The translations under genes were made by a program, and so were the position numbers. This document shows, piece after piece, positions 10,235 through 29,231 of a stretch of 64,000 bases of DNA. Under the pieces are notes generated by a model that saw only the letters and a program-made list of their open reading frames with translations, was not told the DNA's origin and made no database searches. This DNA comes from Maribacter polysiphoniae (GTDB lineage: Bacteria > Bacteroidota > Bacteroidia > Flavobacteriales > Flavobacteriaceae), in the NCBI RefSeq assembly GCF_003148665.1, contig NZ_QGGQ01000001.1:327762-391761 (forward strand). The letters are read 5' to 3'. The first letter of the stretch is position 1. The number at the start of each line of letters is the position of its first letter.

Positions 10235-10250
10235 CCTAAACCGATTTAGG
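10235..10250 (+). promoter_or_regulatory. LacI-family operator 1
   Basis: CCTAAACCGATTTAGG, a near-perfect palindrome of the kind bound by LacI/GalR repressors, 111 bp ahead of the regulator start. The same core recurs at 10335 and 11417. Confidence 0.75.
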
Positions 10251-10334
10251 TTTCGTTAAGGAGATACTATGTTAGGTTTCATTTAATGGAATTGTTACCA
10301 TTTAAACAAAAATGGTTGGTAGTATCGAAATTAG

Positions 10335-10348
10335 CTAAACCGCTTTAG
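10335..10348 (+). promoter_or_regulatory. LacI-family operator 2, at the regulator start
   Basis: CTAAACCGCTTTAG ends 12 bp before the ATG of the LacI-type gene, so bound repressor would block its own transcription or initiation: a sign of autoregulation. It lies 100 bp, about nine to ten helical turns, from operator 1, which would suit looping. Confidence 0.75.
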
Positions 10349-10360
10349 TTTTTATTGATC

Positions 10361-11383
10361 ATGAAGAAAGTTTTCTTAAAGGATATTGCAGAAAAACTGA
10401 ACGTTTCAAAAACGGCCGTGTCGTTGGTTTTGAACAATAAGGGTGATGAAAACAAAATCAGTCAGGAAACCCAACAACGGATCATTGAATACGCCAAAAA
10501 ACATAATTATGTACCCAATCAACTTGCCCGGGGATTAAGTAGGGGCAAAAGTGAAACCATAGGATTGATCATTCCCAATATATCGGATACCTTTTATTCC
10601 AAGATTGCGGGTTATGTGGAACTCAAGGCAAAAAATCTGGGGTATACGGTGCTTTTTAGTAGCTCCAATGAGGACCCCAAAAAGGAGGGGGAACTCATCC
10701 GGTCAATGCTCAACCGTCAAGTGGAAGGGTTGATCATAGCATCCACGCAGCAAAACCTAAAAGAGATCCAGTCGTTAAAACATGATAAGTTTCCTTTTGT
10801 GTTGATCGATAGGCATTATCCTGAAAGCGACACCAATTATGTGGTTGTGGATAATTTTAACGGATTAAAAACGGCTACAGAGCATTTATTGCAATTGGGA
10901 AGGCGTAAAATCGGGTTTATTACCTTAAAACCTGGATTGGAAGCCATAAAACAAAGGTTATTGGGGTACCAAAGTGCCCTAAGGGATTTTAATATTGAAT
11001 ACAAGGAGGAACTTGTAAAAGAGCTAAGCCCTGGCAATTATGAAAACGAGATCGAATCGGCTATTCGGGAATTATTGAAATTCCCTAACTCCGTTGACTC
11101 CATCGTGTTTTCAACACACTACCTAACCTCTGTGGGTTTAAGGGAATTGAAAAGGAAAAATGTTAAAGTACCTCAGGAAGTAGCCATCGTAAGTTTTGAT
11201 GAATTGACTGCTTTTGATCTGGTGGATCCACCCATTACCGCTGTTATTCAGCCTGTAAAGGACATAGCCAACACCGCCGTGGATATATTGATCAATGAAA
11301 TTGAGGGTAAAGACAGCACAATGGACAATAAAAGAATACTGGATTCCAAACTTGAAATCAGAAAATCATGTGGAACGTTTTAA
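10361..11383 (+). CDS. LacI-family transcriptional regulator of the mannoside locus
   Basis: A 340-residue LacI/GalR regulator. Residues 1-60 form the helix-turn-helix and hinge (KDIAEKLNVSKTAVSLVLNN ... YVPNQLARGLSRGKS). The rest is a periplasmic-binding-protein-like sensor (ETIGLIIPNISDTFYSKIAG, NRQVEGLIIAST, AIVSFDELTAFDLVDPPITAV). I took ATG 10361; the TTG six bases earlier is also in frame but less likely. Three matching palindromes, two upstream and one at 11417-11430 ahead of the GH38 gene, are its probable operators. By analogy the inducer is a sugar or sugar acid from the pathway encoded downstream. Whether it represses or activates is not shown by the sequence. Confidence 0.93.
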   Translation: MKKVFLKDIAEKLNVSKTAVSLVLNNKGDENKISQETQQRIIEYAKKHNYVPNQLARGLSRGKSETIGLIIPNISDTFYSKIAGYVELKAKNLGYTVLFSSSNEDPKKEGELIRSMLNRQVEGLIIASTQQNLKEIQSLKHDKFPFVLIDRHYPESDTNYVVVDNFNGLKTATEHLLQLGRRKIGFITLKPGLEAIKQRLLGYQSALRDFNIEYKEELVKELSPGNYENEIESAIRELLKFPNSVDSIVFSTHYLTSVGLRELKRKNVKVPQEVAIVSFDELTAFDLVDPPITAVIQPVKDIANTAVDILINEIEGKDSTMDNKRILDSKLEIRKSCGTF

Positions 11384-11416
11384 CCCATGGCTCGGAAATA
11401 ACATTACAACAATCAA

Positions 11417-11430
11417 CTAAACCGATTTAG
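11417..11430 (+). promoter_or_regulatory. LacI-family operator 3, upstream of the GH38 operon
   Basis: CTAAACCGATTTAG flanked by AA and TT (11415-11432), same core as operator 1, in the 124-bp gap between the regulator and the first mannosidase gene. It is well placed to control the long downstream operon. Confidence 0.75.
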
Positions 11431-11507
11431 TTTTATAACTAAATGAAGTTGGGGATGTTGTCTTTGGTTGGCAATCATAAAGGATAATAAAAAGAATAAA
11501 AAATAGA

Positions 11508-14500
11508 ATGATGAAACATCAAATTAAACTAGCGGCTAGAATACTATTTGGTAGTTGTTTTTTCCTTGTTTTGAATATTGTGGATGCGCATTCATTTTTG
11601 GAGGAAAGGACCACTACAATACCTATGCCTTTCCATCAAGGCAATGGTAGTGGAAATGGCCATATTCAAGAGTTGAATACGAATTATCGTTTATACGATC
11701 TTGCCAAGAATGATATTGAAGGCTATACGCAAATGCTTTCCGGTTCGGAGTTCTTTCTGTATCCCTCGTTACGTGAAGATGTCAATGTTTCGATGATCGC
11801 AAGGGCGACGACAGGTGAAATGGGATTTGAATTCCTCACGGGAGTGGTGCCTGCAAACTATAGTTCCGATACGGTTACCTTTTTCATGTTGAGTGATATC
11901 GATTTAAATTTAAGGGAGTCTTTCGATATTCATGTAAACGACAAACACCTATTGACTTTCAATTCCAATGAGGATGGTACGCTTACGGTGACGGATAATC
12001 CCGGTAAGGGAAATGCACAATATGTCTTGGTCCGAAGGGATGGCAATGGGGATGGCATTGGTGCTTTTCGTTTAACCGTTCCTACCTCATTATTGGAAAA
12101 AGGCAAGAGCGCAAAAATTAAATTCAACGGTCATAAAAAGAATTCAAACTGTTGGCTTATGGTGTTTAAGGCAGACGATGCGGTTGAACGTATTAAAATG
12201 TCCGTATCCGATGAAGCCGCTTTTATGGTGAAACAAAGAAATGAAATGCTCTATGTTGATGCACCAACCCATTTTAATGGCAAACAGGTGTATTTGATCA
12301 GTGACGGAAAGAAAAGTATGGTTAAGAAGTTCAAGGCACAAGGGGAAATGTCCAAAGTGTCTTTCAATATCGCTCCACCAAAAAATACGTTCTCCATTGT
12401 TTATGATGGCAAAGAGATAGCACTCGATTTTGTCAAAGGTGATGGTGTTCTTTCTAAAACCGATATAGAAGGAAAATACCTCTATCACCATAGTACCAAT
12501 TATAATAATGGTTGGTTCGCTTCTTTGACCAAGTTGTACAAGCCCGAATTCAATGAAACCTTTGATGACTTTTTTGAGAAGAAATATGAAAATGGATTGG
12601 TGTCCATTATGAATTCAAGCCATCAGGATATTGCATGGGTCGATCGCCCGGAGGTGTGCATAATTTTAAGGGATACCCTTTTATTGGCCCCTGTTTTAAA
12701 AGATGCATTTATAAGGGATGATTACGGATTTGATATAGAGGATGGACTAATGTTACGGGAATATCTGGAAAGGCATCCCGAATCAAGGGAACAGTTGACG
12801 ACCTTGTTGAAAAGAAATTTGATATCGGTAGGTGCCACATATAACTGTCCTTACGAAGATATGTACGATGCCGAAGACCAGGTACGCCAATTGTATCTGG
12901 GTAAGAAGTGGGTGAAAAAGAATTTTGGCGGTTACGATTCCAAGGTATATTGGAATGTGGATGTGCCGGGCAAATCGTTACAAACGCCCCAAATACTCAA
13001 AAAAGCTGGAGTGGATTATATGGTAATCAGTCGGCATGCCAAAGGCATGTTCCATTGGGCGAGTCCGGATGGAAGTTCTGTATTTACGTATTCCCCGGGG
13101 CATTACGGTAACGATCTGCTCTATCTCTTAAGGGATATGAACAATAAACTGAAATATGGTGCGGACCAGACATTGTATTGGGAAGAAACTTTTAAGGGCG
13201 GAGAGATCCAGACCCCTTTATTGTCTAGCCAAGATATGCTTCCCGCTATAGATTATTCAGAATATATCGATACTTGGAACGCTTTTGATTCCCTTAAGGA
13301 TGAAGATGGGACCACCAAAAAATTGTACCTGCCCAAAATGGAATTGCAGACCGTAGATGAGTTTATGCCTTTGGCGGAGAAAAATGCGATAAATGTTGAT
13401 ACGATTATGGGAGAGCGTCCTAATGTCTGGGTGTATATCCATGGCCCCGGTCATCACGATGCCCTGACTGCCAGTAGGGAAGCATCGAAATTGTTGCCGG
13501 CTGCCGAGAAATTCCTGTCCATCGCCAATAGTATCGATCCTAAAAAAATGCAATATCCCTTTAAGGAGTTTGATGAGGCGTGGCGGGCAAAAATTTATCC
13601 CGACCACGGTTGGGGTGGCCACGATGGGGACATCACCGATAATCTGTTCAAGGAAAATTTGGTGAAGTCACGTACCATGGGACAAAATTTACTAAACCAA
13701 GGGGTCGATTTTATAGCTCGGAGAATCAAGAAGAACGAGAAACTCGGAATTCCTATCGTGTTGTTCAATAGTCTTTCATGGAAACGAACAGATCCCGTTA
13801 GCACAAAAATCGAATTTGAGAAAGGTACGTTCAAGGATGTTACTGTAATGACGGCCAATAAGAAAAGGGTTGATGTACAGACAAGTAATGAAGCCTATTA
13901 TGATGACGGAAGCCTAAAAAGTGCCGATATAACGTTCATTGCAGAAGACATTCCCTCGATCGGTTACGCCACATTTTATGTTTATGACAACAAATCCGGG
14001 AATGTTATGAAAGCCGCAAAACCTGGAAATACCTCAACATATGAAAACCCTTTCTACAAGGTAAGCTTTGAAGATGGTGGCATTGCCCAGGTATATGATA
14101 AGGCATTTAAAAGAGACCTTTTCTCGAATGACCATTTTAAGATAGGCGATGTTTTCACCATGCAATCCGTTGGGAACGGTGCCGGTGAATTTGGTGATGT
14201 GCAACAACCTAGTATGGTCGATTTTGACAAGGTAAGCCTTCATAATCCCCAATGGGAAATTTTAGAGAATGGCCCGGTGTACACCAAATATAGATTGGAA
14301 CAGCAAATACTACACGCCATTGTAAGGCAGGATGTTACCTTATACCATAATTTAAAGAGAATTTATTTTGATACCAGCCTTCGCAACTGGTCTGGGGAAC
14401 TGTACAGGGAATTCAGGACTGCATTCCCGGTGAATATGGAGAACCCTGAGATTGCCCATGAAGTACCTTTCGGAAGTGTCCGTGTCGGAAAGGATGAGAT

Positions 14501-15128
14501 TAAAACTGCGGGCGAGCGGTATACCCCGCTTTGTAAGGATGTGCATCCAAGAGCGATCATTGATTGGATCTCGGCCACGGATGATGAGGTTGCCATTACG
14601 TTGAGTTCATCAGTATCCGCCGCGGATTGGATCGATCCAACTTCGCATGATAATGGCAAGGCTGTTTTACAGAATTTATTGTTGGCCAGCAGAACATCCT
14701 GTCATTGGGAAGGCAACGAATACTCCCAGGCGGGCAACCACGATTTCAACAATGTGCTTACCTCGAATGAAGCCGGAAGCATAATGGGCCAAAAAATCGC
14801 GAAACAAAAAAACGAACCCATACATGTTGTGGTCTATCCCGACACATCAAAGGATGCATTCTTGCCTGCGACAACCAGTTTTTACACTATCGACTCGGAT
14901 AATGTGATCATATCGACCATTAAGAAGGCAGAAGATACCGACGAGGTCATTGCACGCATGTATAACGTAAAAGGCCATAATGAAACGGTTAATGTTTCAT
15001 CCTATTTTGATATTGTTTCGTACAAGCATACCAATATAATCGAGGAGAATCCAATACCTGTTGCTCCAGTATTGAAGGTTGGTAAATATGCGATTGAAAC
15101 ATTTAGCTTGGACGCGAACAAAAAATAA
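11508..15128 (+). CDS. Secreted GH38-type alpha-mannosidase-like protein (copy 1)
   Basis: A 1206-residue protein with an N-terminal signal segment. About 350 residues of an accessory beta-rich region precede the GH38 catalytic domain. There, SSHQDIAW holds the zinc ligands His372 and Asp374, and YWNVDVPG holds Asp485, at the place of the catalytic nucleophile/zinc ligand. The C-terminal ~450 residues match the GH38 beta-sandwich part (IVLFNSLSWKRTDPV; GYATFYVYD). GH38 enzymes remove alpha-linked mannose from N-glycans or mannans. It is the first gene of a tight operon under operator 3. Its N-terminal module resembles that of the second GH38 protein at 24526, so the two are paralogues. Exact linkage specificity is unknown. 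Confidence 0.85.
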   Translation: MMKHQIKLAARILFGSCFFLVLNIVDAHSFLEERTTTIPMPFHQGNGSGNGHIQELNTNYRLYDLAKNDIEGYTQMLSGSEFFLYPSLREDVNVSMIARATTGEMGFEFLTGVVPANYSSDTVTFFMLSDIDLNLRESFDIHVNDKHLLTFNSNEDGTLTVTDNPGKGNAQYVLVRRDGNGDGIGAFRLTVPTSLLEKGKSAKIKFNGHKKNSNCWLMVFKADDAVERIKMSVSDEAAFMVKQRNEMLYVDAPTHFNGKQVYLISDGKKSMVKKFKAQGEMSKVSFNIAPPKNTFSIVYDGKEIALDFVKGDGVLSKTDIEGKYLYHHSTNYNNGWFASLTKLYKPEFNETFDDFFEKKYENGLVSIMNSSHQDIAWVDRPEVCIILRDTLLLAPVLKDAFIRDDYGFDIEDGLMLREYLERHPESREQLTTLLKRNLISVGATYNCPYEDMYDAEDQVRQLYLGKKWVKKNFGGYDSKVYWNVDVPGKSLQTPQILKKAGVDYMVISRHAKGMFHWASPDGSSVFTYSPGHYGNDLLYLLRDMNNKLKYGADQTLYWEETFKGGEIQTPLLSSQDMLPAIDYSEYIDTWNAFDSLKDEDGTTKKLYLPKMELQTVDEFMPLAEKNAINVDTIMGERPNVWVYIHGPGHHDALTASREASKLLPAAEKFLSIANSIDPKKMQYPFKEFDEAWRAKIYPDHGWGGHDGDITDNLFKENLVKSRTMGQNLLNQGVDFIARRIKKNEKLGIPIVLFNSLSWKRTDPVSTKIEFEKGTFKDVTVMTANKKRVDVQTSNEAYYDDGSLKSADITFIAEDIPSIGYATFYVYDNKSGNVMKAAKPGNTSTYENPFYKVSFEDGGIAQVYDKAFKRDLFSNDHFKIGDVFTMQSVGNGAGEFGDVQQPSMVDFDKVSLHNPQWEILENGPVYTKYRLEQQILHAIVRQDVTLYHNLKRIYFDTSLRNWSGELYREFRTAFPVNMENPEIAHEVPFGSVRVGKDEIKTAGERYTPLCKDVHPRAIIDWISATDDEVAITLSSSVSAADWIDPTSHDNGKAVLQNLLLASRTSCHWEGNEYSQAGNHDFNNVLTSNEAGSIMGQKIAKQKNEPIHVVVYPDTSKDAFLPATTSFYTIDSDNVIISTIKKAEDTDEVIARMYNVKGHNETVNVSSYFDIVSYKHTNIIEENPIPVAPVLKVGKYAIETFSLDANKK

Positions 15129-15149
15129 AACGATAATAAAACTTACTCA

Positions 15150-15845
15150 ATGACGACACTTTGGAAAAGTGATAAGGAGCTATATGAAATAGCAAAAAAG
15201 GAATTATTTGTAGCCCTGGTCGGTGATATTTTGGATAAAATGGGATATTTACATCAATTTCTTCCCCCGAATATTAAACCCCTGAACAATGATTTTGTGG
15301 TCATAGGTAGGGCAATGCCCGTATTGGAGGCCGATGTTTTTGAAGAAGTTGCGGAAAACACCAATAATCCCTTAATGCAAAAGCCATTTGGCATCATGTT
15401 CGAAGCCTTGGACAGTTTAAAAGAAGGAGAAGTATATATCTGTGCAGGATCTTCCCCCAATTATGCCCTTTGGGGTGGATTAATGAGTACAAGGGCAATG
15501 AAATTAGGTGCCGCTGGGGCTGTGGTCAACGGATATTCAAGGGATACCAAAGAGATTCTAAGTCTTGATTATCCTACATTTTCATTTGGCGGCTATGCGC
15601 AAGACCAAGGTCCACGGGGAAAGGTTATCGATTATAGGGTTCCCATAGAAATTGCAGGTATTCGGATAAACCCTGGCGATATTGTGTATGGTGATATAGA
15701 TGGCGTTTTGATTGTGCCAAAAGAAGCTGTGAACGAAGCCTTTACGGGAGCAATTGAAAAAGCTAGGGGAGAACAATTGGTAAAGGAGGCACTCCAAGCC
15801 GGAATGAGTACAGTTGAGGCTTTTGAGAAATTCGGAATCATGTAA
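15150..15845 (+). CDS. RraA-family protein (HMG/CHA aldolase-like)
   Basis: A 231-residue cytoplasmic protein. It carries the RraA/4-hydroxy-4-methyl-2-oxoglutarate aldolase pattern: LVGDILDKMGY near the N-terminus, ALWGGLMSTRAMKLGAAGAVVNGYSRD with the substrate-binding Arg-Asp pair, then GDIVYGDIDGVLIVPKEA, the metal-site region. Members either cleave 2-keto acids, decarboxylate oxaloacetate, or inhibit RNase E. Because it sits among sugar-acid enzymes, 22 bp after the GH38 gene, a lyase acting on a 2-keto sugar acid is the more plausible role here; that is inference. It has no signal peptide. Confidence 0.85.
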   Translation: MTTLWKSDKELYEIAKKELFVALVGDILDKMGYLHQFLPPNIKPLNNDFVVIGRAMPVLEADVFEEVAENTNNPLMQKPFGIMFEALDSLKEGEVYICAGSSPNYALWGGLMSTRAMKLGAAGAVVNGYSRDTKEILSLDYPTFSFGGYAQDQGPRGKVIDYRVPIEIAGIRINPGDIVYGDIDGVLIVPKEAVNEAFTGAIEKARGEQLVKEALQAGMSTVEAFEKFGIM

Positions 15846-15866
15846 ACATACAAGTCAAAAACGACA

Positions 15867-17336
15867 ATGATAATGAAAAACCGGTCTTCTTTTTACCTTC
15901 TGGCAATAAGTTTCGTCTCTACTATTGGCGGATTTCTATTTGGTTATGATACTGCTATTATTTCTGGATGTAATTCATTTTTGGAAAGTCAATACAATCT
16001 TACGGCCAGCATGCTCGGTTGGGTAGTTTCCTCTGCATTGTTAGGAACCATTTTGGGATGTATTATTTCGGGAAAGGTAACGGACAAATATGGTCGTAAA
16101 AAAGCCTTGATATTAGCGGCAAGTTGTTTGACTGTCTCTGCTTTTGGCTCTATGCTGCCCCCACAGTTTTTGGGAAATCCGGACGCTTCTTTTTGGTTGA
16201 CTTCTAGTTTGGACTCCTCATTCTTAACCCTAATCGTAGTCCGCATCATTGGTGGTATAGGTGTGGGTATTACCTCGGTTGTAGCACCTATTTATATTTC
16301 AGAATTGACCATGCCCGAGAAAAGGGGGAAAATGGTATCCCTATATCAACTGTCCATAACATTGGGTATTTTACTGGCTTTTCTTGTTGATTGGATCGTT
16401 CTTAATCAAGCAGGTGATAAAGCCGGGATTATCAGTGGTGCTGATGTTGGTTTTTGGGATTGGCTTTTCGTAGAGGAGCTTTGGAGAGGCATGTTTGGTA
16501 CTGAAATACCCATTGCCATTCTGTTTTTGGTTTTACTCATGTTCGTACCTGAAAGTCCAAGATGGCAGGTGGTCAATGGCAAAGAAAAGGAAGCTCTCGC
16601 TACTATGTCAAGGTTGGGTAATTTGGAAATGGCCAAAACCCAATTGGCAGAGATGAAAGAAGCCACGGTTCAAGAAACCCAAGGATTGAAAGAACTGTTC
16701 AAACCCTATTTAAGAAGGCCATTTTTAATCGGCATTTTACTACCGATGTTCTCCCATTTAAGTGGGATTGCCGCGATCATGTATTTTGCGCCCAATATTT
16801 TGAATGAATCGTTCAAAAGTGTTGAGAGTTCTTTCTTAGGTGCAGTCTTGGTCGGTTTGGTCAATTCAATCTTCACTTTTGTTGCCATATTGAATATTGA
16901 AAGGTATGGTAGGAGAAAACTATTATTAATTGGGGTTATAGGTGCTGCTATATCATTAATGGGTGTCGGTGTATTGTTCGCTATGGGTTCCAATCTGGTA
17001 ATAATTCCATTATTGATTTATGTGGCGTGTTTCGCTTTCTCATACGGCCCCATAGTATGGGTGATTATCAGCGAGATATTTCCAACAAAAATCAGGGGTC
17101 TGGCCGTAAGTATCGGCAGTCTGTCTTTAATGGTAACCGGTTTTTTCATCACACTGACAAATCCACTTTTTATTGAAACGATAAACCCTTCAGGGACATT
17201 CTTCCTTTATGGGGCCCTGACGATTCCTGCCATTTGGTTTATCTGGAAATTTGTTCCGGAAACAAAAGGTAAAACCTTGGAAGAGATTGAAATGTCATGG
17301 AAAACCGCAAATAAAAAGCAAAAAACTATTAAATGA
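15867..17336 (+). CDS. MFS sugar porter (XylE/GLUT type)
   Basis: A 489-residue membrane protein with twelve predicted helices. Sugar-porter signatures are clear: GFLFGYDTAIISG in helix 1, DKYGRKKALI in loop 2-3, the PESPRW motif after helix 6, YGRRKLL in loop 8-9 and the C-terminal PETKGKTLEEIE. These proteins import hexoses or pentoses, usually with a proton. In this operon it would bring in the monosaccharide freed by the secreted mannosidases, which fits the absence of a SusC/SusD pair. The stop overlaps the next start by four bases (ATGA), indicating translational coupling with the cupin gene. Confidence 0.93.
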   Translation: MIMKNRSSFYLLAISFVSTIGGFLFGYDTAIISGCNSFLESQYNLTASMLGWVVSSALLGTILGCIISGKVTDKYGRKKALILAASCLTVSAFGSMLPPQFLGNPDASFWLTSSLDSSFLTLIVVRIIGGIGVGITSVVAPIYISELTMPEKRGKMVSLYQLSITLGILLAFLVDWIVLNQAGDKAGIISGADVGFWDWLFVEELWRGMFGTEIPIAILFLVLLMFVPESPRWQVVNGKEKEALATMSRLGNLEMAKTQLAEMKEATVQETQGLKELFKPYLRRPFLIGILLPMFSHLSGIAAIMYFAPNILNESFKSVESSFLGAVLVGLVNSIFTFVAILNIERYGRRKLLLIGVIGAAISLMGVGVLFAMGSNLVIIPLLIYVACFAFSYGPIVWVIISEIFPTKIRGLAVSIGSLSLMVTGFFITLTNPLFIETINPSGTFFLYGALTIPAIWFIWKFVPETKGKTLEEIEMSWKTANKKQKTIK

Positions 17337-17755
17337 AATTGATAGAGCAATATCATATTGGTGATAAGGGTTATCATCCTTTTCTAATTCGGGATGGTTG
17401 GCAGGTCGCCCAACTGAATTACATGCCCGAACAGGAAATTGGAAACATTAAGAAGTTGGACATACATCACCTGACTGATGAGGTTTTTATCCTTTTAAAA
17501 GGAAAAGCGGTATTGATCACAGCAAAAATCGAGGGGGATGAAATTGAATATGACGTTGAGCTTATGCAACCTAATATAACATATAACATTCCGGTTGAAA
17601 CCTGGCATAATATTGCTATGGATGTGGATTGTGAAGTGATCATCGTCGAGAAATCGAATACCCATGAAGGTGATTTCGATTTTTTCGATTTATCGATTGA
17701 AAAAAGGATGGAGATGAAGGAGTTGGTCGAAAATGCTTTTAACCCAGGAAATTAA
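17333..17755 (+). CDS. Small cupin-fold protein
   Basis: A 140-residue cytoplasmic protein whose central part follows the cupin order: HHLTDEVFILLKGKAVLIT (first motif with His-His and Glu), then NITYNIPVETWHNI with the later His. It overlaps the MFS gene by four bases and precedes the SDR gene by 32 bp. Cupins of this size may be sugar isomerases, epimerases or binding proteins. In this context an activity on a sugar or sugar acid seems likely, but no specific family is recognised. Confidence 0.65.
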   Translation: MKLIEQYHIGDKGYHPFLIRDGWQVAQLNYMPEQEIGNIKKLDIHHLTDEVFILLKGKAVLITAKIEGDEIEYDVELMQPNITYNIPVETWHNIAMDVDCEVIIVEKSNTHEGDFDFFDLSIEKRMEMKELVENAFNPGN

Positions 17756-17787
17756 TTTTCAATTTAACAAATAATAAAAGTAGCGTT

Positions 17788-18588
17788 ATGCTTCAAATAG
17801 ATTTAAAAGAGAAAAAAGCTTTGGTTACCGGGGGAAGTATGGGAATCGGAGCGGAAATATGTAAACAACTGGCCAATTGCGGTGCGGATGTTTTTATCAA
17901 CTATTACAGCAACAAGGAGAAAGCGGAAACCTTGGTCAAGGAACTGGATGAAGCATATGGCGTAAAAGCAGTCTGTGCAGGGGCCAATGTTGCCGATTCG
18001 AAGCAGGTAAAGGAAATGTTCCTTAAAATGGATAATGAATTAGGCGGTATTGATATTCTTGTGAACAATGCAGGAACCGAATCCATCCACCATGTATTGG
18101 ATATGGAAGAAAAGGAATGGGATAGGGTCATGAATACCAACCTAAAAGGTCCTTTCCTTTGTTCCCAACAAGCCGCCCAAAGAATGGAGCTCAGTGGAGG
18201 TGGGGTCATCATCAATATATCCTCCATTCATGATGTGGTACCGAGAAAAGGGTTAATACACTATTGTTCGGCAAAGGCCGGTCTTAAGATGTTTTCCAAA
18301 TGTTTGTCCCTGGAACTTGCGGATAAAGGTATTCGAGTGCTTTCCATCGCCCCAGGAGCTATCGAAACCAATATGAATCGGGAAGAGATTGGAAAATTCG
18401 GGAAAGACAAGTTTGAAAAATGGATTCCACAGGGTCGAATTGGGGAAGTATCCGATGTGGCTAATACCGTAGCTTTTATGGCAAGTGATTTGGCTAGTTA
18501 TGTAAATGGTACGGACATATATATTGATGGTGCATATATGAACCATACAATCCAATATGACCCACGTCCACCAAGAAGAAAAGATTAG
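17788..18588 (+). CDS. SDR-family NAD(P)-dependent sugar/alcohol dehydrogenase
   Basis: A 266-residue classical short-chain dehydrogenase/reductase. The nucleotide-binding TGGSMGIG is at residues 14-21, NNAG follows the fourth strand, the catalytic Ser lies in NISSIHD, Tyr159 and Lys163 in YCSAK, and PGAIETNM closes the core. The closest broad group is that of glucose 1-dehydrogenase-like and gluconate/keto-deoxy-sugar oxidoreductases. Next to a lactonase and mannonate dehydratase it could oxidise mannose to mannonolactone, or interconvert fructuronate and mannonate; I cannot decide between these from sequence alone. It is soluble and part of the operon. Confidence 0.88.
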   Translation: MLQIDLKEKKALVTGGSMGIGAEICKQLANCGADVFINYYSNKEKAETLVKELDEAYGVKAVCAGANVADSKQVKEMFLKMDNELGGIDILVNNAGTESIHHVLDMEEKEWDRVMNTNLKGPFLCSQQAAQRMELSGGGVIINISSIHDVVPRKGLIHYCSAKAGLKMFSKCLSLELADKGIRVLSIAPGAIETNMNREEIGKFGKDKFEKWIPQGRIGEVSDVANTVAFMASDLASYVNGTDIYIDGAYMNHTIQYDPRPPRRKD

Positions 18589-18665
18589 ATTATTAAAGGA
18601 ATTCTGAGCGAATTTTGTGGATTTAACAGGTAATGGATATTGAACTATAATACATATAAATTAGA

Positions 18666-19715: not shown

Positions 19716-19742
19716 TGAATTTTACCCTTTAGAATAGAAAAA

Positions 19743-20816: not shown

Positions 20817-20862
20817 ATCATTATGCCATATTATTTATTGACAATTGGAAAATAGACAAACA

Positions 20863-22254
20863 ATGAAAAGAAGAAAATTTATCAAGGCGACAGGTGCTTC
20901 CGCAATTGCGGTTACGGGAGTATCCCCTTTATTGACATGGGCTTGTAGTGAATCTAAATCAAGTGATACTTTATTGAAAGAACAGGCCTTGTTAGCTTTT
21001 AAAAGATTTGAAGAGGTATGGGATTTTCAAGATTTCTGGAAGAGAGGTAATACGTTTGATGCTTGCTTGGTATTTGTAGATGCTTTACAAAAGCGTTGGT
21101 CAGAGGATAAAGAGGTTGTAGCCATTCAAGAAAAAGTGGGCAAAATGCTGGAGGAAAACCTAACTTTTTTCAACAGTTACGACCCAGGAACTCTTTGGGC
21201 AGACGACTTTGGCTGGTGGGGCCTTATGGCACTCAATGCAAGAAAACATCTATTACGAACAGGGAATAAGGAACTTGCCGATAAGTATTTAAAACTATCG
21301 ACCGACCTCTGTTGGGAATACAAAAAGAAAACGGCTTATGATCATTCCGAAACGGGTAATCCTGTTTTGCACGGTTGTAGAAATGGAGACGCCAATGGCG
21401 ATAGTCTAGGCGTTAAAAATACGGTTACCAATGTGCTGCTCTTTTTGCTCTCATCACGAATTTACCGCCTATCATTGGCTGAAAGTTGGCCTGATAATGA
21501 AAAATATCTCAATATGGCCTATCGTCAATGGCTCTGGTTTAATGAGTGGTTCGAATTGGATAGCTATCAGTATTTAAAGGAATTGTCCACTTCCGGCGCT
21601 TTGGTACAGGAGCGTCCCATGGCATTTGTCGAGGGATCTACCTATCAGGATAAAATACATCCACCTTGGGCCGAAGGTTGGGTTTGGACAGGTGACCAAG
21701 GGATGTTGGTTGCCGCTTTGACCGATATGTTGGCGATAAAAAATGAGTTGTCCATATACCTCACCACAAAAAATAGTGATGCCGAATTTGATGTAAAGGC
21801 CTATGAGTCAAGATTAAGGGACTTGATAAAATTGATAGGCCAAGGTGTAAAAAACGCCTTGATCGCCGATGTTGATGGTATTATACGTGAAGCGCCATGT
21901 TTATCAAGTTTTGGTCCCGAACATGGTAGGGACTACCTCGCCGGTCGCGGAATTATGATGCGTTATTTGGGAAGTGAAGAAGAAAGGACGCTTATCGATG
22001 TTGATGTATCGGAAAACATAAGGAAAACGGTAAAAGCTATTTGGGAAACCCGTGATAAAACCAACAATCAATTTCGAGCGGAGTTTACCAGCCGTGAGAA
22101 CGATGCGCTTTATGTTGGGCAGTTCCGGGAACTATGGGGCTTGGCAGATGATGTACATGAATGGGATATTAAATCAATGAAAGAAAAAAATAAATTTGGT
22201 GTTTGCCAATCTATCGGTTTGGATGCATTGGGGGCGGCACTTCTTTTAAGTTAA
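20863..22254 (+). CDS. GH76-like (alpha/alpha)6 protein with Tat-type signal
   Basis: A 463-residue exported protein. I used ATG 20863, which gives [19 protein letters not shown], a twin-arginine signal (RRKFIK); TWAC after it could be a lipobox. The mature part is helical with a [13 protein letters not shown] motif, where Asp114-Asp115 match the adjacent acidic pair of GH76 alpha-1,6-mannanases, and [16 protein letters not shown] later. GH76 enzymes cut the alpha-1,6 backbone of fungal mannan. The similarity is moderate, so an unclassified relative is possible. Its position between uxuA and two further glycosidases suits breakdown of alpha-mannan. Confidence 0.7.
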
Positions 22255-22268
22255 TTTAAGGCAGAAAT

Positions 22269-24482
22269 ATGAATTTCGAAAAGAACGATATGATACCAAA
22301 ACCAAATACCAAACGAATTTCTTTACTACTATTTTTAGCCTGCTGTATTCAAGTATCGACGATACAGGCACAGAAAGTCAACACCCCCGCAGATCCTGAA
22401 TATTATGCCATGGACAGGGAGGATATCGCTTTTGATGACGAACAGGTAATATTAGCAAATTATAGGGGATTTGTATCACCCAGACAGTACAGCGTAACAC
22501 AATTTACCAATGTATGGTTTTTGCCAATCGGCGCACCGCGCTACGAATTCAATCTAAACTTTTTTGATAAGGGAACAGGTCGTTTAATAGAGGATGACGT
22601 TCCAACAAAATGGAAATCATGGATCGATGATGGGGGTAGCTATGACCCTTTGGGCTCAAATTTTCGCCCCAATTCCCCATCGATAATGGTTACCCAGGAT
22701 GAAAAATGGCAACCCAACCAATATGAGCGTACGGCGACATTCCATAAAGAATATAACAAGAAATGGGTTAGTTTTTCAGCTAAGAGTTGGACGAATGTCT
22801 CTTTTGATGATGATGAGGTTTTTATAAAATTAAAGCTTACCAATCGTAATTCGAAAGATTTGGAAATGACCTTGATTCCAAACCAAGTGGCTGAAATATT
22901 GGAATGTCATTTTAAAAAAGGGTCGACAAAAGTAGATTCACTTGATGCTTTTACCATTGGAAGCGAAGTGGCCCATGCACGTGTTTCATCTTCGATCCAA
23001 AAAACAAGTGGTAATGGGTTTGAAATAAGTATAGCTCCCGGAAATACGGAGACCTATTATTTTGCCATTAAATTCTATGAACCCCAAAACGGAGCGCCGG
23101 AAATTTCCCAGTCAGATATTAAGGAGCGTATGGAACGTGCAGATAAAAAGACACGGGAAATGTTGTCTTGGGCCTATGATAAACTCCCGAAATTTACAAG
23201 CTCAAACAAGCAACTGGAGGAGTATTATTACCGTTGTATGTTGTCCGTTTTAATGAGTCGTTATGAAAATCCAAATTTCATTTCCGATGTGTTTTGGGCG
23301 GTTGGTACGTGGCCCTATACAATTAGTTGGGATACTTCCTATACTTCGGATGTCATCGCAATGTTAGATCCGGAAAGTTTGAAAAGTGCGATCCTTACTG
23401 ATTTTGAACAAGTACAATTGAAAAGAACCTATGTCGGTTGGAACGGAGCACATTGGGATATTCTATACATTCAAGAACCATTTGCACTTCAACTCATGAT
23501 TGAAGCCTACATACGCCATACTGGGGATTATTCCATTTTTAATGAAAAAGCGGCAGGTGTAACCGTATGGGAATGGATGCAACGCTGGGTAGATGAACTT
23601 CAAACCAACTATACCAATGAATTAGGACTTATTGATGTCGGATATAACACTGAAAAAATAATTGAGATCCGTACCGATGGTTATAATCATGCCGTACCGA
23701 TCACCAATACCTTGACCATTGACTTGTTATATACGATGTCTGATTGGGCAAAAAAGAGAAACGAGAAGAAATTAGGGCAAACATATTTCAAGGATGCCGA
23801 AAAACTGAAAGGCCTTGTAAACAAGTACATGTGGAATGAAGAATTGGGCTGGTTCGACAATTACTATCCAGATGGCACCAAAGGCACCATATGGACCTAT
23901 CATTTATTCGATCTCTTGGGAACGGATTTCCTGCCAGACCATCAAGCGTATCGTTTGGTAAGTCATTTACAGGAAGGGGAATTTCTTGGTAAATACGGCG
24001 TGTATTCCATTGCTCGGAGAGATAGTGTGCATTGGGATCTAATCGACTCGGATTGGGGAGGCGGTGGCCAGTATGCAGGAATGCCGGGTCGTATTTCCCG
24101 TAACCTATACCAAAAAGGATTTGCAGGTAAAGGTTGGGATGTCTTAAAGCGCAATATCAGGTACATAGACCATTTTCCGTATTTACCTCAAAATCCTCGT
24201 ATTGATACCGCCGAACAAGACCGTTCTTCAATGCCTTTACAAATTTCTGCAGGGGCAGGAATGGAAGCCATTGTCTTTGGCACATTTGGAGTAAATATGG
24301 GAGAAAAAGAATTGACCATAAAACCTTTTAATCACGAAGATATCGGTGAAGCAACACTAACTGATATCAGATGGAAAGGCAGAAAATTCGGGATTCAATT
24401 GACCCGTAAAACATTTTCGGTTTATGAAGGTGGTAAATTGATTGCTACTAAATTTTATGGGGAAGAAGTGGTTGTTCAATAA
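22269..24482 (+). CDS. Secreted six-hairpin glycosidase (GH63/GH78-like fold)
   Basis: A 737-residue protein with a signal peptide (ISLLLFLACCIQVSTIQAQ). Residues ~40-280 form a beta-rich N-terminal domain. The rest is an (alpha/alpha)6 barrel like those of clan GH-G/GH-L enzymes: ISDVFWAVGTWPYTISWDTSYTSD, then DVGYNTEKIIEIRTDG, WNEELGWFDNYYPDG and SDWGGGGQYAGMPGRISRNLYQKG. The DTSYTSD and late Asp/Glu positions are candidate catalytic sites. The family cannot be set with confidence from sight; GH63 and unclassified six-hairpin groups are the main candidates. It starts 15 bp after the GH76-like gene. By context it acts on mannose-containing oligosaccharides. Confidence 0.7.
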   Translation: MNFEKNDMIPKPNTKRISLLLFLACCIQVSTIQAQKVNTPADPEYYAMDREDIAFDDEQVILANYRGFVSPRQYSVTQFTNVWFLPIGAPRYEFNLNFFDKGTGRLIEDDVPTKWKSWIDDGGSYDPLGSNFRPNSPSIMVTQDEKWQPNQYERTATFHKEYNKKWVSFSAKSWTNVSFDDDEVFIKLKLTNRNSKDLEMTLIPNQVAEILECHFKKGSTKVDSLDAFTIGSEVAHARVSSSIQKTSGNGFEISIAPGNTETYYFAIKFYEPQNGAPEISQSDIKERMERADKKTREMLSWAYDKLPKFTSSNKQLEEYYYRCMLSVLMSRYENPNFISDVFWAVGTWPYTISWDTSYTSDVIAMLDPESLKSAILTDFEQVQLKRTYVGWNGAHWDILYIQEPFALQLMIEAYIRHTGDYSIFNEKAAGVTVWEWMQRWVDELQTNYTNELGLIDVGYNTEKIIEIRTDGYNHAVPITNTLTIDLLYTMSDWAKKRNEKKLGQTYFKDAEKLKGLVNKYMWNEELGWFDNYYPDGTKGTIWTYHLFDLLGTDFLPDHQAYRLVSHLQEGEFLGKYGVYSIARRDSVHWDLIDSDWGGGGQYAGMPGRISRNLYQKGFAGKGWDVLKRNIRYIDHFPYLPQNPRIDTAEQDRSSMPLQISAGAGMEAIVFGTFGVNMGEKELTIKPFNHEDIGEATLTDIRWKGRKFGIQLTRKTFSVYEGGKLIATKFYGEEVVVQ

Positions 24483-24525
24483 ACAATCCGGGTACAGGAA
24501 TTATAAATAATCAAAGATTGATACG

Positions 24526-27500
24526 ATGAAAACCAAACATTTACCAATACTGTTATTACTATTTATTTTGGCGCCTATGGTACAGGCCCAAGAAAATTAT
24601 TTAGCGGGTTATGAACAAAAAGTCAGTGGAACCGATTTTACGTATCACTCCCCTTTTTCCTATAGGGAAAAATGTCTTTTGACCAGAGCGCGGGCCGATG
24701 TGCCTCCTATTGCTTGGAAGACAGAAGTTGTACCCAATGATTATTCAAAAAAAACCGTATCCTTCATATGGTTGTATGGGATTGGCGCAAAGACCCCTTC
24801 CAATAAATTCGATCTTTATGTAAATAAGGAAAAAGTAATGACGTTTTCGTCTCCCACCAAGAATGAGGAAGTACGTACCTTGTCGGGTAAAGACGGGATT
24901 CAATTGGTATTTAACCGCTCAATGGTAGATACGAACCGTGATGAAATGGGTACTGCGGTATTAACGATTCCCAGTAACTATTTCACACTGGGAAATGCCG
25001 TTGAATTAATGGTTGATGGCGTGGACAATCACAGCAATGATTGGTTTATGACCTTTGACAAGGTGCTGAGTGAAGACATCAAATCAAAACAGCTAAAAAC
25101 AGTGACCAAAAAAGAGGGTTCGCTGTACCATACGGTCCGGTTTGAAATCGTGCATTTGAAAGCACCTACCAAGGCAAGAATTACCACTTCGGATCTAACA
25201 CAGAAATTTGATATCAAAACGGGATTTAATGAAATTGATTTACTTATTCCTGCAGTAACAACTCCAACAAAGGTTGACGCGGAGCTGCGTATGGGCAAAG
25301 TGAGGAAGCAAGTTGGTTTTAGGGTTGAACCTGTTAAGGAATGGACCATTCATTTAGTGCAGCATAGCCACACCGATATTGGCTATACAAGATCACAGAC
25401 CGAGATTTTGACCGAGCATTTACGTTTTATTGATTATGCCCTTGATTATTGCGATCAAACTGATGATTACCCAGATGAAGCCAAATTTCGATGGACATGT
25501 GAAGCCGCTTGGACCGTTCGTGAATATTTGAAAAACAGACCCAAAGAACAAATAGATCGATTGCTTCAAAGAATAAAAGAAGGGCGGATAGAAGTGACCG
25601 GTATGTTCTTCAATTTTTCGGAGATCATTGATGAAACCGCTTTGGCCATGCAAACACAGGCACTGAACCATTTTAAGGAAAGGGGTATCGATGTAAACAC
25701 GGCCATGCAAAATGATGTGAATGGCATAGGTTGGGCCATGATCGATCTGTACAAGAATACAGGCATTAAATACCTGACCATGGGTCAGCACGGGCATAGG
25801 GCACAGGTTCCTTTTGATAAACCGACCTCTTTTTGGTGGGAGTCTAACTCGGGTAACCGTCTCTTGGCTTATAGAAGCGAGCACTACATGCATGGCAATG
25901 CGTTAAGCTTAACCTCAGGGGAGTTAGATCAATTTAGGGCCAATTTATCCCAATATCTTGATGGACTGGAAGCAAAAGGGTACCCACATGACAGGACGGC
26001 TTTTCAATTTTCAGGATACCTGACCGATAATTCACCCCCTTCCACCAAGGCATGTGATATTGTTAAGGAATGGAATCAAAAATACGAGTGGCCCAAATTG
26101 AAACTATCGCTGGCAAGTGAGTTCATGGTTTATTTAGATAAAAATAAAGGTGATGACTTGCCTGTTAAAAAAGAAGCGTGGCCCGATTGGTGGACCGACG
26201 GTTTCGGTTCTGCTTTTACAGAAACAAAAACGGCAAGAACGGTACATTCGAATATGATCGCAAATATGGGACTCTTGTCAATGGCGAAGTTCATGGGAAC
26301 CGCGCTTCCAGAAAACATTACTGGAGACATTGAAAAAGCCTATGACGAATTGCTATTTTATGATGAGCACACCTTCGGTGCTGCTGAGAGTATTACGGAT
26401 CCTTTAATTGAAAATTCGGTCATACAGTGGGGACAAAAATCGGCATATGCATGGACGGCCTTTAAGGAATCCAGTTTAATCCAAGAAAAGGCTTTGGGGT
26501 TAATGCAACAACACATCCCTAAAGCCAAAGAGCCTACCATAGCGGTTTTCAACACGTTGAATTGGGAGCGCTCAGGATTGGTCAAGGCCTATATAGACCA
26601 TCAGTTGTTACCATTGGGCAAACCCTATAAAATATTGGATACCAAAGGGAATGAAATTGCTGTGCAAAGGATATCCAGTAGGGCAGATGGCAGCAATTAT
26701 CTGTTGTGGGCACCCAATGTTCCCCCAATGGGTTATGCAACTTTCAAAATTGTTTTGGAAGAAGGGAAAAAGCAACCAAAACAAAATAAGGAAGTAGAAG
26801 GGCCAATTCTTGAAAATGAATATTATCGTATTCAGATCGATTCAAAAAGAGGAGTGGTAACTAGTTTGTTCGATAAGGAATTGAATAAAGAATTGGTCGA
26901 TTTAAACAGTGGGTATAAGTTAGGTGAATTTGTATACGAACAACCGGATAACCGGGAATCGATGGAGCGTCTTACCAATGCGAATAGGGATACGGTTTAT
27001 GTTCCGATAAAAAAGAAAATGTCCGGTTTATCCGAGATAAAGGTTTCGGGTATAAAGGAAACCCCGTTATGGAGCAGTATACATATTAATGGGAAAAATG
27101 AGGAATGCGCCGATTCAAGGGGGGTTAATTTTGAAATAAAATTATATAAAAACTCAAAACGGATAGAATTCTCCTATGACATGGTCAAACGTGGGCATAC
27201 TGCTCCTGAAGGTGTTTTTATTGCCCTTCCTTTTCGTATGAAGGATAATGATCAATTGGCTTTTGATGTACAAGGAGGGATTGTAAATCCAGGTATGAAC
27301 CAATTGGAGGGTACTTCAGCCGATTGGAACGTAATACAGAACTTTGCGGCGGTTCAAAACGATGAAGCCCAGATTTTATTCAGCTCCAATGATGTTCCGC
27401 TGGTCCAATTCGGGGATATCAATACCGGTAGATTTTATTATAAGCACAAACCTGAAAATCCACATATTTATTCTTGGGTACTCAATAATTATTGGACGAC

Positions 27501-27927
27501 CAATTTTAGGGCCAGTCAAGAAGGTGAAATGAAATGGAAGTATTATTTGACATCATCCAAAGATCGTTCTAAATCTTTTGCCACCCGATTCGGATGGGAA
27601 AGTAGGGTGCCAATGCTTTCCCGGGTCATTCCACCAAGTAAATCAAACAAGGCCAATAGTACGGTTTCCAAATCTTTATTGGATTTTGATCTGCCCAATT
27701 TAATTCTTGTCAGTGCTAGGCCTTTACTTGGTGATAAAGGGGTGCTCCTTCATCTGCGGGAAACAGAAGGGGATCATGCCATTCTTGATGTTCCAAGATT
27801 GCTTGGGCAAACCGGGGCGGTTAGAGCCGTAGAGACCAATGTACTGGGGGAAGAAATCAAGGAGTTGACCAAACCATTACTTATAGAGCATTACGAAACT
27901 CGATTTGTATTGTTGAAAATGTTATAG
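24526..27927 (+). CDS. Secreted GH38 alpha-mannosidase (copy 2)
   Basis: A 1133-residue protein with signal peptide MKTKHLPILLLLFILAPMVQA. An N-terminal module of ~270 residues resembles that of the other GH38 protein of this operon. The catalytic domain opens with VQHSHTDIGYT, giving zinc ligands His282 and Asp284; Asp397 in MQNDVNGIG occupies the nucleophile place. The later part includes IAVFNTLNWERSG and GYATFKIV, typical of the GH38 C-terminal domain. It should release terminal alpha-mannose outside the cytoplasm. It is the last intact gene of the operon, 93 bp before a decayed GH92 sequence. Confidence 0.9.
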   Translation: MKTKHLPILLLLFILAPMVQAQENYLAGYEQKVSGTDFTYHSPFSYREKCLLTRARADVPPIAWKTEVVPNDYSKKTVSFIWLYGIGAKTPSNKFDLYVNKEKVMTFSSPTKNEEVRTLSGKDGIQLVFNRSMVDTNRDEMGTAVLTIPSNYFTLGNAVELMVDGVDNHSNDWFMTFDKVLSEDIKSKQLKTVTKKEGSLYHTVRFEIVHLKAPTKARITTSDLTQKFDIKTGFNEIDLLIPAVTTPTKVDAELRMGKVRKQVGFRVEPVKEWTIHLVQHSHTDIGYTRSQTEILTEHLRFIDYALDYCDQTDDYPDEAKFRWTCEAAWTVREYLKNRPKEQIDRLLQRIKEGRIEVTGMFFNFSEIIDETALAMQTQALNHFKERGIDVNTAMQNDVNGIGWAMIDLYKNTGIKYLTMGQHGHRAQVPFDKPTSFWWESNSGNRLLAYRSEHYMHGNALSLTSGELDQFRANLSQYLDGLEAKGYPHDRTAFQFSGYLTDNSPPSTKACDIVKEWNQKYEWPKLKLSLASEFMVYLDKNKGDDLPVKKEAWPDWWTDGFGSAFTETKTARTVHSNMIANMGLLSMAKFMGTALPENITGDIEKAYDELLFYDEHTFGAAESITDPLIENSVIQWGQKSAYAWTAFKESSLIQEKALGLMQQHIPKAKEPTIAVFNTLNWERSGLVKAYIDHQLLPLGKPYKILDTKGNEIAVQRISSRADGSNYLLWAPNVPPMGYATFKIVLEEGKKQPKQNKEVEGPILENEYYRIQIDSKRGVVTSLFDKELNKELVDLNSGYKLGEFVYEQPDNRESMERLTNANRDTVYVPIKKKMSGLSEIKVSGIKETPLWSSIHINGKNEECADSRGVNFEIKLYKNSKRIEFSYDMVKRGHTAPEGVFIALPFRMKDNDQLAFDVQGGIVNPGMNQLEGTSADWNVIQNFAAVQNDEAQILFSSNDVPLVQFGDINTGRFYYKHKPENPHIYSWVLNNYWTTNFRASQEGEMKWKYYLTSSKDRSKSFATRFGWESRVPMLSRVIPPSKSNKANSTVSKSLLDFDLPNLILVSARPLLGDKGVLLHLRETEGDHAILDVPRLLGQTGAVRAVETNVLGEEIKELTKPLLIEHYETRFVLLKML

Positions 27928-28020
27928 ATCATAATAAGTACGATGAAATTTAGAATGATAAAGGATTTGGTTTGTATTGGAGTTAGTTGAGATGAAAACC
28001 AAGGGAATAAGGATTTGTAA

Positions 28021-28292
28021 GATAGTGGGTATTTGGAATATGTAGATACAAGAGTAGGTACGGCAGCCAGTATAGCCGATATTACGGTTACCGTGGATGA
28101 AGAGCCAATGGGGTACTTTTCCCCTATTGTAAGGGATCTATCAGCGCTTACCCAGTGGACGCCCCAAACCGCTAAATGGCCAAACCTCATTATTACTCCG
28201 TACAATTGGATGATTACAACATAAAGGCGGAGTTTACAGCGGCAGCAAAAACGGGATTCTTCCGCGCCGTATCGATTGAATTTTTTCCGTGA
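28021..28292 (+). pseudogene. Decayed N-terminal part of a GH92 alpha-mannosidase
   Basis: Two short frames carry GH92 landmarks. Frame one reads GYLEYVDTRVGTAAS and then ALTQWTPQT, like the start of GH92 proteins. A shift into another frame from about 28176 gives KPHYYSVQLDDYNIKAEFTA and TGFFRA, the first beta-sandwich of that family, and stops at 28290. Large pieces between these motifs are missing and there is no signal peptide, so it is a remnant made by internal deletion plus frameshift. GH92 enzymes are exo-alpha-mannosidases, matching the locus. The assignment rests on remembered family motifs, not on an alignment. Confidence 0.65.
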
Positions 28293-28335
28293 AAAACAGC
28301 CACTATTCATCGGATATCTAGATAATACGCAACAA

Positions 28336-29206: not shown

Positions 29207-29231
29207 TACCCACTACCAAAAAACACATCAG

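Follow-up and report, generated by a model that had tools for sequence, protein, structure and literature searches.

We analysed a stretch of 64,000 nucleotides (the window) from the 5.13-Mb genome of Maribacter polysiphoniae (contig NZ_QGGQ01000001.1), in which 11 genes on the plus strand span positions 10355–27927. In order, they encode a LacI-family regulator, an α-mannosidase of glycoside hydrolase family 38 (GH38a), an RraA-family enzyme, a sugar porter of the major facilitator superfamily (MFS), a small cupin, a short-chain dehydrogenase/reductase (SDR), a PF10282-type lactonase, a divergent UxuA-like protein, a GH76-like glycosidase, an MGH1-like glycosidase and a second GH38 enzyme (GH38b). 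The intergenic gaps from GH38a through GH38b are −4 to 77 bp, with 124 bp between lacI and GH38a and 616 bp downstream of GH38b. A first-pass annotation of the same sequence had described this run, and we found every gene where it had been placed, on one strand and tightly packed; the soluble enzymes it had listed in series are all present, with the correction that the MFS gene sits between the RraA and cupin genes. We consider it probable that the run is a LacI-controlled operon for the oxidative use of α-mannosides.

The regulator gene (10355–11383; PF00356 and PF13377) starts at a TTG or at an in-frame ATG at 10361. Four glycosidases appear to be exported: GH38a (11508–15128; PF01074, PF07748 and PF17677), the GH76-like protein (20845–22254, with a probable start at 20863; PF03663, 35.1 bits against a cut-off of 25.9), the MGH1-like protein (22269–24482; PF22422, 30.1 bits against 27) and GH38b (24526–27927; PF01074 and PF07748). 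Signal peptides, judged by eye rather than with a predictor, were present on these four and absent from the five soluble enzymes, namely RraA (15150–15845; PF03737, 112.8 bits against 24.5), the cupin (17333–17755), the SDR (17788–18588; PF13561), the seven-bladed lactonase (18666–19715; PF10282, 299.1 bits against 21.7) and the UxuA-like protein (19743–20816; PF03786, 190.3 bits against 23.7). The MFS porter (15867–17336; PF00083) passed TIGR00879 with 328.5 bits against a cut-off of 237.8, and the SDR passed a single NCBIfam model, the broad PRK07231 (225.2 against 215 bits). The cupin had no Pfam match and scored below the cut-off of NCBIfam TIGR04366 (22.6 against 42 bits), its nearest solved structure being the uncharacterised 3D0J (6e-20). 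Protein P0006 had no significant match among the sequences of solved structures.

The 18 best Protein Data Bank (PDB) chains for the predicted model of the GH76-like protein, which has a mean predicted local distance difference test (pLDDT) score of 66.9, were all GH76 enzymes. Its D120–D121, which we take to be the GH76 catalytic Asp-Asp pair, was invariant in 18 of 18 relatives. By profile, modelled fold and Asp-Asp pair, the protein is a distant, predicted glycosidase of family GH76, and it looks like a twin-arginine lipoprotein. Assignment to GH88 was rejected: GH76 enzymes took ranks 1–18 (E 4.8e-5 to 1.1e-3) and the first GH88 protein rank 20 (1.6e-2). Together, two GH38 enzymes, a GH76-like and an MGH1-like protein in one operon point to an α-mannoside as substrate.

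LacI-type operators flank lacI on the plus strand. The palindrome CTAAACCGATTTAG lies upstream of lacI (10236–10249) and again between lacI and GH38a (11417–11430), and CTAAACCGCTTTAG lies immediately 5′ of lacI (10335–10348). The palindrome CTAAACCGNTTTAG had three exact copies genome-wide, all of them at these sites (10236, 10335 and 11417), against a chance expectation of about 0.2 at an assumed 40% GC. Of 12 related loci that have a lacI gene at 55% identity or more, 9 carry the core of the palindrome no further than 300 bp from that gene.

We report gene content, conservation and linkage, operator-like sites, conserved metal-site residues and a predicted fold, from which we infer the substrates and reactions of the following scheme. 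The exported GH38, GH76-like and MGH1-like glycosidases would free mannose from high-mannose N-glycan or α-mannan, and the MFS porter would import it. The SDR, as a proposed mannose 1-dehydrogenase, would use NAD(P) to oxidize mannose at C1 to mannonolactone, which the lactonase would open to mannonate. The UxuA-like enzyme would then dehydrate mannonate to 2-keto-3-deoxygluconate (KDG), and KDG would yield pyruvate and glyceraldehyde through RraA, or pass through phosphorylation by KdgK and cleavage by 2-keto-3-deoxy-6-phosphogluconate (KDPG) aldolase, or both.

Conservation of the gene set

We examined 80 loci with the UxuA-like protein from named genomes, the best 80 of 454 relatives (loci and genomes are given L and G numbers). 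Genes were labelled by BLASTP against chosen reference proteins, at identities of 55% for the SDR, 30% for the lactonase, 40% for RraA and 60% for UxaC and the uronate-type SDR. Labelled partners were counted on the plus strand only, and a repeat scan covered both strands at any identity. Some of these loci stop where their contig does, and 21 of the 80 are shorter than 15 kb, so misses are partly due to lacking sequence.

The same SDR was found in 43 of the 80 loci (the SDR loci), together with RraA (42), the MFS porter (42), GH38 (38), the cupin (36) and the lactonase (35); RraA, MFS, lactonase, GH38 and cupin occurred all together in 29. Other glycosidases were GH92 (15 loci), GH76-like (14), GH85 (5) and MGH1-like (4). 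Further partners were a solute-binding-fold protein (27), an enoyl-CoA-hydratase-family protein (25), a CoA-transferase (25) and a KdgK-like kinase with Eda (7). By sequence family, genes for a predicted dehydrogenase, lactonase and mannonate dehydratase-like protein are linked to those for predicted mannoside hydrolysis. The SDR loci belong to eight Bacteroidota families: Flavobacteriaceae, Lewinellaceae, Fulvivirgaceae, Prolixibacteraceae, Marinifilaceae, Marinilabiliaceae, Chitinophagaceae and Sphingobacteriaceae. Conserved co-occurrence, which the first-pass annotation had named among the checks on its reading, was thus found in 43 of 80 loci, and this rules out a neighbourhood unique to the source genome. 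The operator core also recurred: across the 80 loci it had 29 matches, compared with 1 for a reversed control; in seven loci (L071, L072, L073, L080, L085, L092 and L094) it lies inside the operon, close upstream of a CoA-transferase or UxuA-like gene.

Of 299 genomes of the family, 20 have the UxuA-like protein at E 1e-30, and in 15 of these it reaches at least 76% identity. The SDR was found at E 1e-100 in 12 genomes, all of them among those 15 (hypergeometric 5e-19, kinship ignored); because at most 8 candidate SDRs were scored in each genome, this tally may have missed some. In two of the three genomes without the SDR the UxuA-like gene sits with UxaC (G006 and G162), and in the third it faces a canonical uronate operon (G203). 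In phylum-wide draws, the UxuA-like protein occurred at E 1e-40 in 6 of 395 genomes, two of them in the source's genus with its own genome included, and RraA in 5 of 395, again including the source genome; the set is therefore patchy and rare.

One relative (G270, 99% complete) carries, in a single cluster, genes for LacI, SusC, SusD, the UxuA-like protein, two GH38 enzymes, the cupin, RraA, a SASA-family esterase, MFS, SDR and lactonase, with the KdgK-like kinase and Eda at its end. Its genome has no UxuA-family match besides the UxuA-like protein, and its UxaC is a stop-ridden remnant. Such a cluster would by itself take a mannoside all the way to pyruvate and a triose.

The glycosidases of the relatives also bear on the glycan. 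A GH18 protein with an EndoS-like barrel adjoins a related module in L049, and the GH85 members characterized to date act on N-glycans only, according to the accessible text of PMC10154615. The presence of GH92, GH85 and GH18 suggests that the target, at least in the relatives, is high-mannose N-glycan. In the mannose operons of L105, L106, L110 and L122, the GH85-type gene is directly followed by an open reading frame (ORF) of 210–213 amino acids, which in L106 belongs to the CutC family by Pfam.

Settings of the UxuA-like dehydratase

The nearest solved relatives of the UxuA-like protein by sequence were the mannonate dehydratases of Streptococcus suis, Enterococcus faecalis and Escherichia coli. 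Consistent with this, the five best PDB chains for its predicted model (mean pLDDT 90.8) were mannonate dehydratases of three species (E 1.7e-24 to 1.2e-19), followed by the epimerase UlaE (2.6e-12). Residues H212, C251, H280, D322 and H323 were kept in 84 of 84 relatives and align with H199, C237, H266, D310 and H311 of S. suis ManD (tag-corrected numbering), which we take to be the metal ligands and the catalytic His. The region of ManD Tyr325, presumably a functional residue, aligns with gaps: position Y339 is Tyr in 75 and Phe in 9 of the 84 relatives, and Y334 is Tyr in 49 and His in 35.

The same dehydratase, 73–80% identical to that of the window, occurred with uronate-type genes in 10 of the 80 loci. 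We defined this uronate setting by the presence of UxaC, a uronate-type SDR or an Nramp-family transporter; all three were present in 6 of the 10 loci, SDR and Nramp in L101, and Nramp alone in L103. Across the ten, partners were the uronate SDR (9), Nramp (8), UxaC (6) and RraA (6), and none had the lactonase, GH38 or the mannoside-type SDR (Fisher P, mannoside versus uronate setting, 2e-6 for the lactonase and 2e-7 for GH38, kinship ignored). Conversely, UxaC, canonical UxuA and UxuB were absent from 42 of the 43 SDR loci on both strands at any identity, and Nramp from all 43. In the one exception, L110 (Seonamhaeicola sediminis), a canonical uronate operon with genes for UxuB, UxuA, another SDR and UxaC (17201–21068) lies downstream, apart from the mannose set. 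In a tree of the dehydratases, one branch holds 8 of the 10 uronate-setting proteins along with 7 from the mannoside setting, and by the starred branches the setting must have changed three times or more (midpoint root, with long outgroup branches flagged by the tool). Of the remaining 27 loci, 12 have some scored genes and 15 have none; L142 and L144 have an SDR of 49–50% identity to the uronate one directly upstream.

UxaC with a reductase yields mannonate (altronate when galacturonate is the starting uronate), and oxidation of mannose likewise leads to mannonate. Mannonate is the compound that both settings can share, and this is our main argument that the UxuA-like protein would be a mannonate dehydratase, supplied with mannonate from mannose by the SDR and lactonase. 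The first-pass annotation had likewise favoured mannose over glucuronate as the source of mannonate, which the missing UxaC in 42 of 43 SDR loci bears out. It had also held that the genes of the glucuronate route were missing; they are absent from the cluster, but other parts of the source genome carry uxaC as well as a canonical uxuA accompanied by a D-mannonate oxidoreductase gene.

Several neighbours of the dehydratase deserve mention. An Nramp-family metal transporter is its steady companion in the uronate setting (L101, L102, L103, L107, L121, L129, L131 and L133 among the loci) and also adjoins canonical UxuA in the source genome (L055); perhaps it supplies metal to the dehydratase. On Ensifer, Sinorhizobium and Rhizobium plasmids (L160, L170, L171 and L172), genes for the UxuA-like protein, an SDR and an ABC transporter lie back to back with canonical UxuA and RraA; both UxuA types of L172 look broken. 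A second module in L049, L050, L058 and L059 pairs a UxuA-like paralogue (34–36% identity) with an adjoining MGH1-like gene (70–84% to that of the window) and an MFS gene, with an SDR in three of the four and GH18, GH92, a GH94-like protein or a second CoA-transferase in some. This module is a possible parallel pathway; it had no match in the source genome at E 1e-30.

A number of observations weigh against parts of this reading. The UxuA-like protein scored below the cut-offs of NCBIfam uxuA TIGR00695 (127.9 against 199.55 bits) and PRK03906 (155 against 191), and because it fails both mannonate dehydratase cut-offs we filed it as UxuA-like rather than as a uxuA equivalog. It lies near canonical UxuA on four mapped Ensifer, Sinorhizobium and Rhizobium plasmids and in Cellulophaga (L091), which suggests that the two need not share one job. 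Fifteen of the 80 loci, 10 of them labelled Verrucomicrobiota, have no scored partner, so the protein has other settings too, and L125 and L126 count as uronate-setting only through an SDR several kilobases off. The uronate-setting SDR outscores that of the window on PRK07231 (252.4 against 225.2 bits); because both pass, this model is uninformative on the SDR substrate. The nearest solved kin of the window SDR are FabG as much as glucose dehydrogenase, and the lactonase is missing from 8 of the 43 SDR loci. With one mismatch allowed, the operator pattern had 10 strand hits, adding three further places in the genome, against 34 for a backward control; since the control gives more matches, only the exact form of the operator is telling.

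The missed NCBIfam cut-offs and the nearby canonical UxuA would fit an enzyme that works on another sugar acid, such as altronate, or that is an epimerase or isomerase, in which case the sugar would not be mannose; its next nearest folds are UlaE and keto-sugar 3-epimerases. We consider this improbable, because the presumed metal ligands and catalytic His are invariant, mannonate dehydratases take the top structural ranks, GH38 accompanies 38 of the 43 sets, with GH92, GH85 and GH76-like enzymes as others, and G270 has no other UxuA-family protein. Somewhat less likely still is that the SDR acts on KDG or a later compound and that mannonate or another acid is imported. In favour of this, the SDR is similar to FabG-type and other SDRs as well, and an MFS protein could carry an acid, but the porter is of the sugar type, above the TIGR00879 cut-off, and the lactonase accompanies the SDR in 35 of 43 loci with neither found in the ten uronate-setting loci. 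An ordinary glucuronate route, in which glucuronomannan would yield mannonate through UxaC and UxuB, seems very unlikely to us. The α-1,3-mannan backbone of diatom glucuronomannan, described in the accessible text of PMC6298971, would suit such a route, as would the uxaC and uxuB genes elsewhere in the source genome and the canonical uronate operon that follows the set in L110. Mannonate from glucuronate at this operon was nevertheless rejected, because UxaC was found at no identity in 42 of the 43 SDR loci within the sequence covered; in addition, a Pfam scan of the window cluster found no glucuronidase-type family, and G270 has no intact UxaC.

RraA, the fate of KDG and accompanying genes

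If the UxuA-like enzyme forms KDG from mannonate, RraA is a candidate for the next step. Class II aldol cleavage is the chemistry of the RraA family, and R131–D132 of the window protein align with R123–D124 of the HMG/CHA aldolase 3NOJ, in which we take D124 to be the active-site residue paired with R123. R123 is critical in HMG/CHA aldolase (PMC5065237, accessible text). The window protein fell below the cut-offs of the NCBIfam HMG/CHA models (66.0 against 179 and 57.6 against 304.5 bits) and of the RraA model (44.2 against 136); because it missed every listed cut-off, we regard the enzyme as RraA-like rather than as a named family member.

RraA is retained in both the mannoside and the uronate settings, and its kin lie near other sugar-acid dehydratases. 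We examined 11 of 21 plasmid records with RraA kin, and in 8 of the 11 (L160, L165, L166, L168, L170, L171, L172 and L173) a gene of a sugar-acid dehydratase family lies within 10 kb. RraA is directly 3′ of canonical UxuA on Ensifer plasmids (L160, L170 and L171); its kin adjoin an IlvD/EDD dehydratase in Variovorax (L168, in which the RraA copy looks broken), lie one gene from one in Chelatococcus (L173, 37% identity), are close to an altronate/galactarate-type dehydratase in Rhizobium (L166) and stand beside an enolase-type protein in Phocaeicola (L165). In L163, L167 and L169 we recognized no sugar-acid dehydratase within 10 kb. Among five genome loci with RraA kin at 56–66% (L176, L177, L178, L184 and L185), an enolase-type gene by Pfam neighbours the RraA kin in L177 (G001); the L185 protein resembles that of L177 by eye, and the surroundings of L184 (L190) hold a 366-amino-acid ORF that looks enolase-type by eye. 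The ORFs scanned at L176 (an Nramp protein) and L178 (no match) were not dehydratases. The simplest reading is that RraA acts on the common type of product, a 2-keto-3-deoxy acid. We put the chance that it is an aldolase at about even.

The main alternative concerns this last step. In a semi-phosphorylated variant, KDG would be used solely through KdgK and KDPG aldolase, and RraA would be otherwise employed, for example as a dehydratase/decarboxylase or in a side reaction. In 7 of the 43 SDR loci the set has a PfkB-type KDG-kinase-like gene and Eda nearby, and the G270 cluster likewise ends with both; the Eda of L093 passes PRK07114 (368.6 against 275), and the kinase resembles KDG kinases though it scores below their cut-offs. 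The source genome has three genes of the KDPG aldolase family PF01081, all outside the cluster, as well as a PfkB-Eda-Nramp-UxuB-UxuA run elsewhere. KDG may therefore be phosphorylated, and the KdgK-Eda pair of the relatives makes RraA look redundant, which counts against its aldolase role. So does FlDet of Flavobacterium sp. UMI-01, the only flavobacterial RraA-family enzyme that we found characterized, which is a dehydratase/decarboxylase and not an aldolase (PMC8563752). Like the proposed RraA, FlDet takes a 2-keto-3-deoxy sugar acid; unlike it, FlDet is a KDGR dehydratase/decarboxylase for an alginate-derived hexarate, and we liken the two by the description in the accessible text rather than by sequence. 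On the other side, RraA is present in 42 of 43 SDR loci and the kinase-Eda pair in 7, within the sequence covered, and RraA kin are also found near sugar-acid dehydratases of other families. We judge this variant possible, at about one chance in three. A missing KDPG aldolase would have forced the aldolase role on RraA, but this idea was ruled out, as PF01081 was present in 18 of 18 genomes tested. Of the pathway in the first-pass annotation, comparative evidence upheld the linked SDR, lactonase and UxuA-like set tied to α-mannosidases, and, given the KdgK-like and Eda genes, the route may or may not be phosphate-free to its end. That annotation had further placed both RraA and the cupin after KDG; of these, an aldolase role for RraA is a reasonable inference.

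Many relatives carry additional genes. A CoA-transferase of family III, an enoyl-CoA-hydratase-family (crotonase) protein and a solute-binding-fold protein are all present in the operon in 24 of the 43 SDR loci, and none of the three in 16. Inspection by eye of the solute-binding-fold protein in L031, L040, L049 and L080 revealed no signal peptide; the protein matches PF13416 in L031 and contains a motif like GIAWDHPRGY. It was the only member of the triple searched for in the source genome, where it had no match at E 1e-10; with 16 loci also wanting the triple, these genes are not required. Together with a CoA-transferase III gene and an enoyl-CoA-hydratase or MaoC gene, the binding-fold protein recurs in sugar and sugar-acid operons of Bacteroidota and Alphaproteobacteria (L031, L032, L034, L039–L041, L043, L161, L162 and L189, besides 27 of the 43 SDR loci). 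Related CoA-transferase and binding-fold genes also occur side by side in Nitratireductor, where uxaC and an enolase-type gene are nearby, in Persicobacter, where they adjoin a MaoC gene and a gene for a rhamnose symporter, and in G006 (L189), where an RraA gene (29% identity) and a MaoC-like ORF are close. We know of no mannose route that uses CoA at such a stage.

A broader joint reading would combine a dedicated Bacteroidota mannose-oxidation pathway, an RraA clade that is a general 2-keto-3-deoxyaldonate aldolase and an as yet undescribed CoA-thioester branch of sugar-acid breakdown, run by the triple in over half of the relatives' operons. As part of it, that general aldolase would follow dehydratases of five families (UxuA-like, UxuA, IlvD/EDD, enolase type and altronate/galactarate type). 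Taken together, this is tentative and, to our minds, rather doubtful.

Further features of the window add little. A promoter and terminator scan was uninformative (66 versus 54.7 and 11 versus 17.0 in shuffles). Downstream of the operon, positions 28544–34423 encode a collagen-repeat protein, a 528-amino-acid protein without a Pfam match, a lipocalin-like protein and a hybrid two-component system.

Related systems and meaning

The closest known counterpart is archaeal. Thermoplasma acidophilum has AldT, presumably an SDR, and ManD, which we take to be of the enolase type. With a KDG aldolase, these enzymes have been assembled as an in vitro cascade that, like our proposal, runs without phosphate from mannose through mannonolactone, mannonate and KDG to pyruvate and glyceraldehyde (PMC6901390). 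Unlike in the proposed route, the lactone opens spontaneously and the aldolase is a different one, and the accessible text mentions no glycosidase or porter operon. The same source states that oxidative routes are known for many sugars and that a mannose-specific one was undiscovered. The mannose pathway of Natronoglomus mannanivorans is a prediction only (PMC10963439). As is proposed for the operon, its mannanase cluster includes mannonate dehydratases, and the figure legend for that cluster names an RraA-family gene; KDG feeds a semi-phosphorylated Entner-Doudoroff route. It differs in belonging to a haloarchaeon and targeting β-mannan (GH5, GH26 and GH2), in a mannose-oxidizing enzyme guessed from elsewhere and in having no lactonase mentioned in the accessible text.

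Among marine flavobacteria, α-mannan polysaccharide utilization loci (PULs) share GH38, GH76 and GH92 with the operon and its relatives (PMC6298971 and PMC9213526), and seventeen isolates carry mannose-type PULs (PMC6298971). Unlike the proposed operon, they come with no mention of mannose-oxidizing enzymes in the accessible text of either paper, the word 'mannonate' being absent from PMC6298971 and 'dehydrogenase' from PMC9213526. In the open-access literature, with most subscription papers outside this scope, we found no bacterial GH38-linked locus for mannose oxidation. We infer that what is new here is a predicted bacterial, operon-encoded and mannoside-linked oxidative mannose route with other enzyme families, the archaeal cases being in vitro or predicted.

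Algal and fungal glycans, like N-glycans, have mannose among their main sugars. If the proposal is true, common glycan degraders would possess an oxidative mannose route, which would suggest how they use mannose without prior phosphorylation. The SDR together with the UxuA-like protein would serve as a gene marker for this route, and the RraA clade, the UxuA-like clade, the small cupin and the cytosolic binding-fold protein would each gain a testable role.

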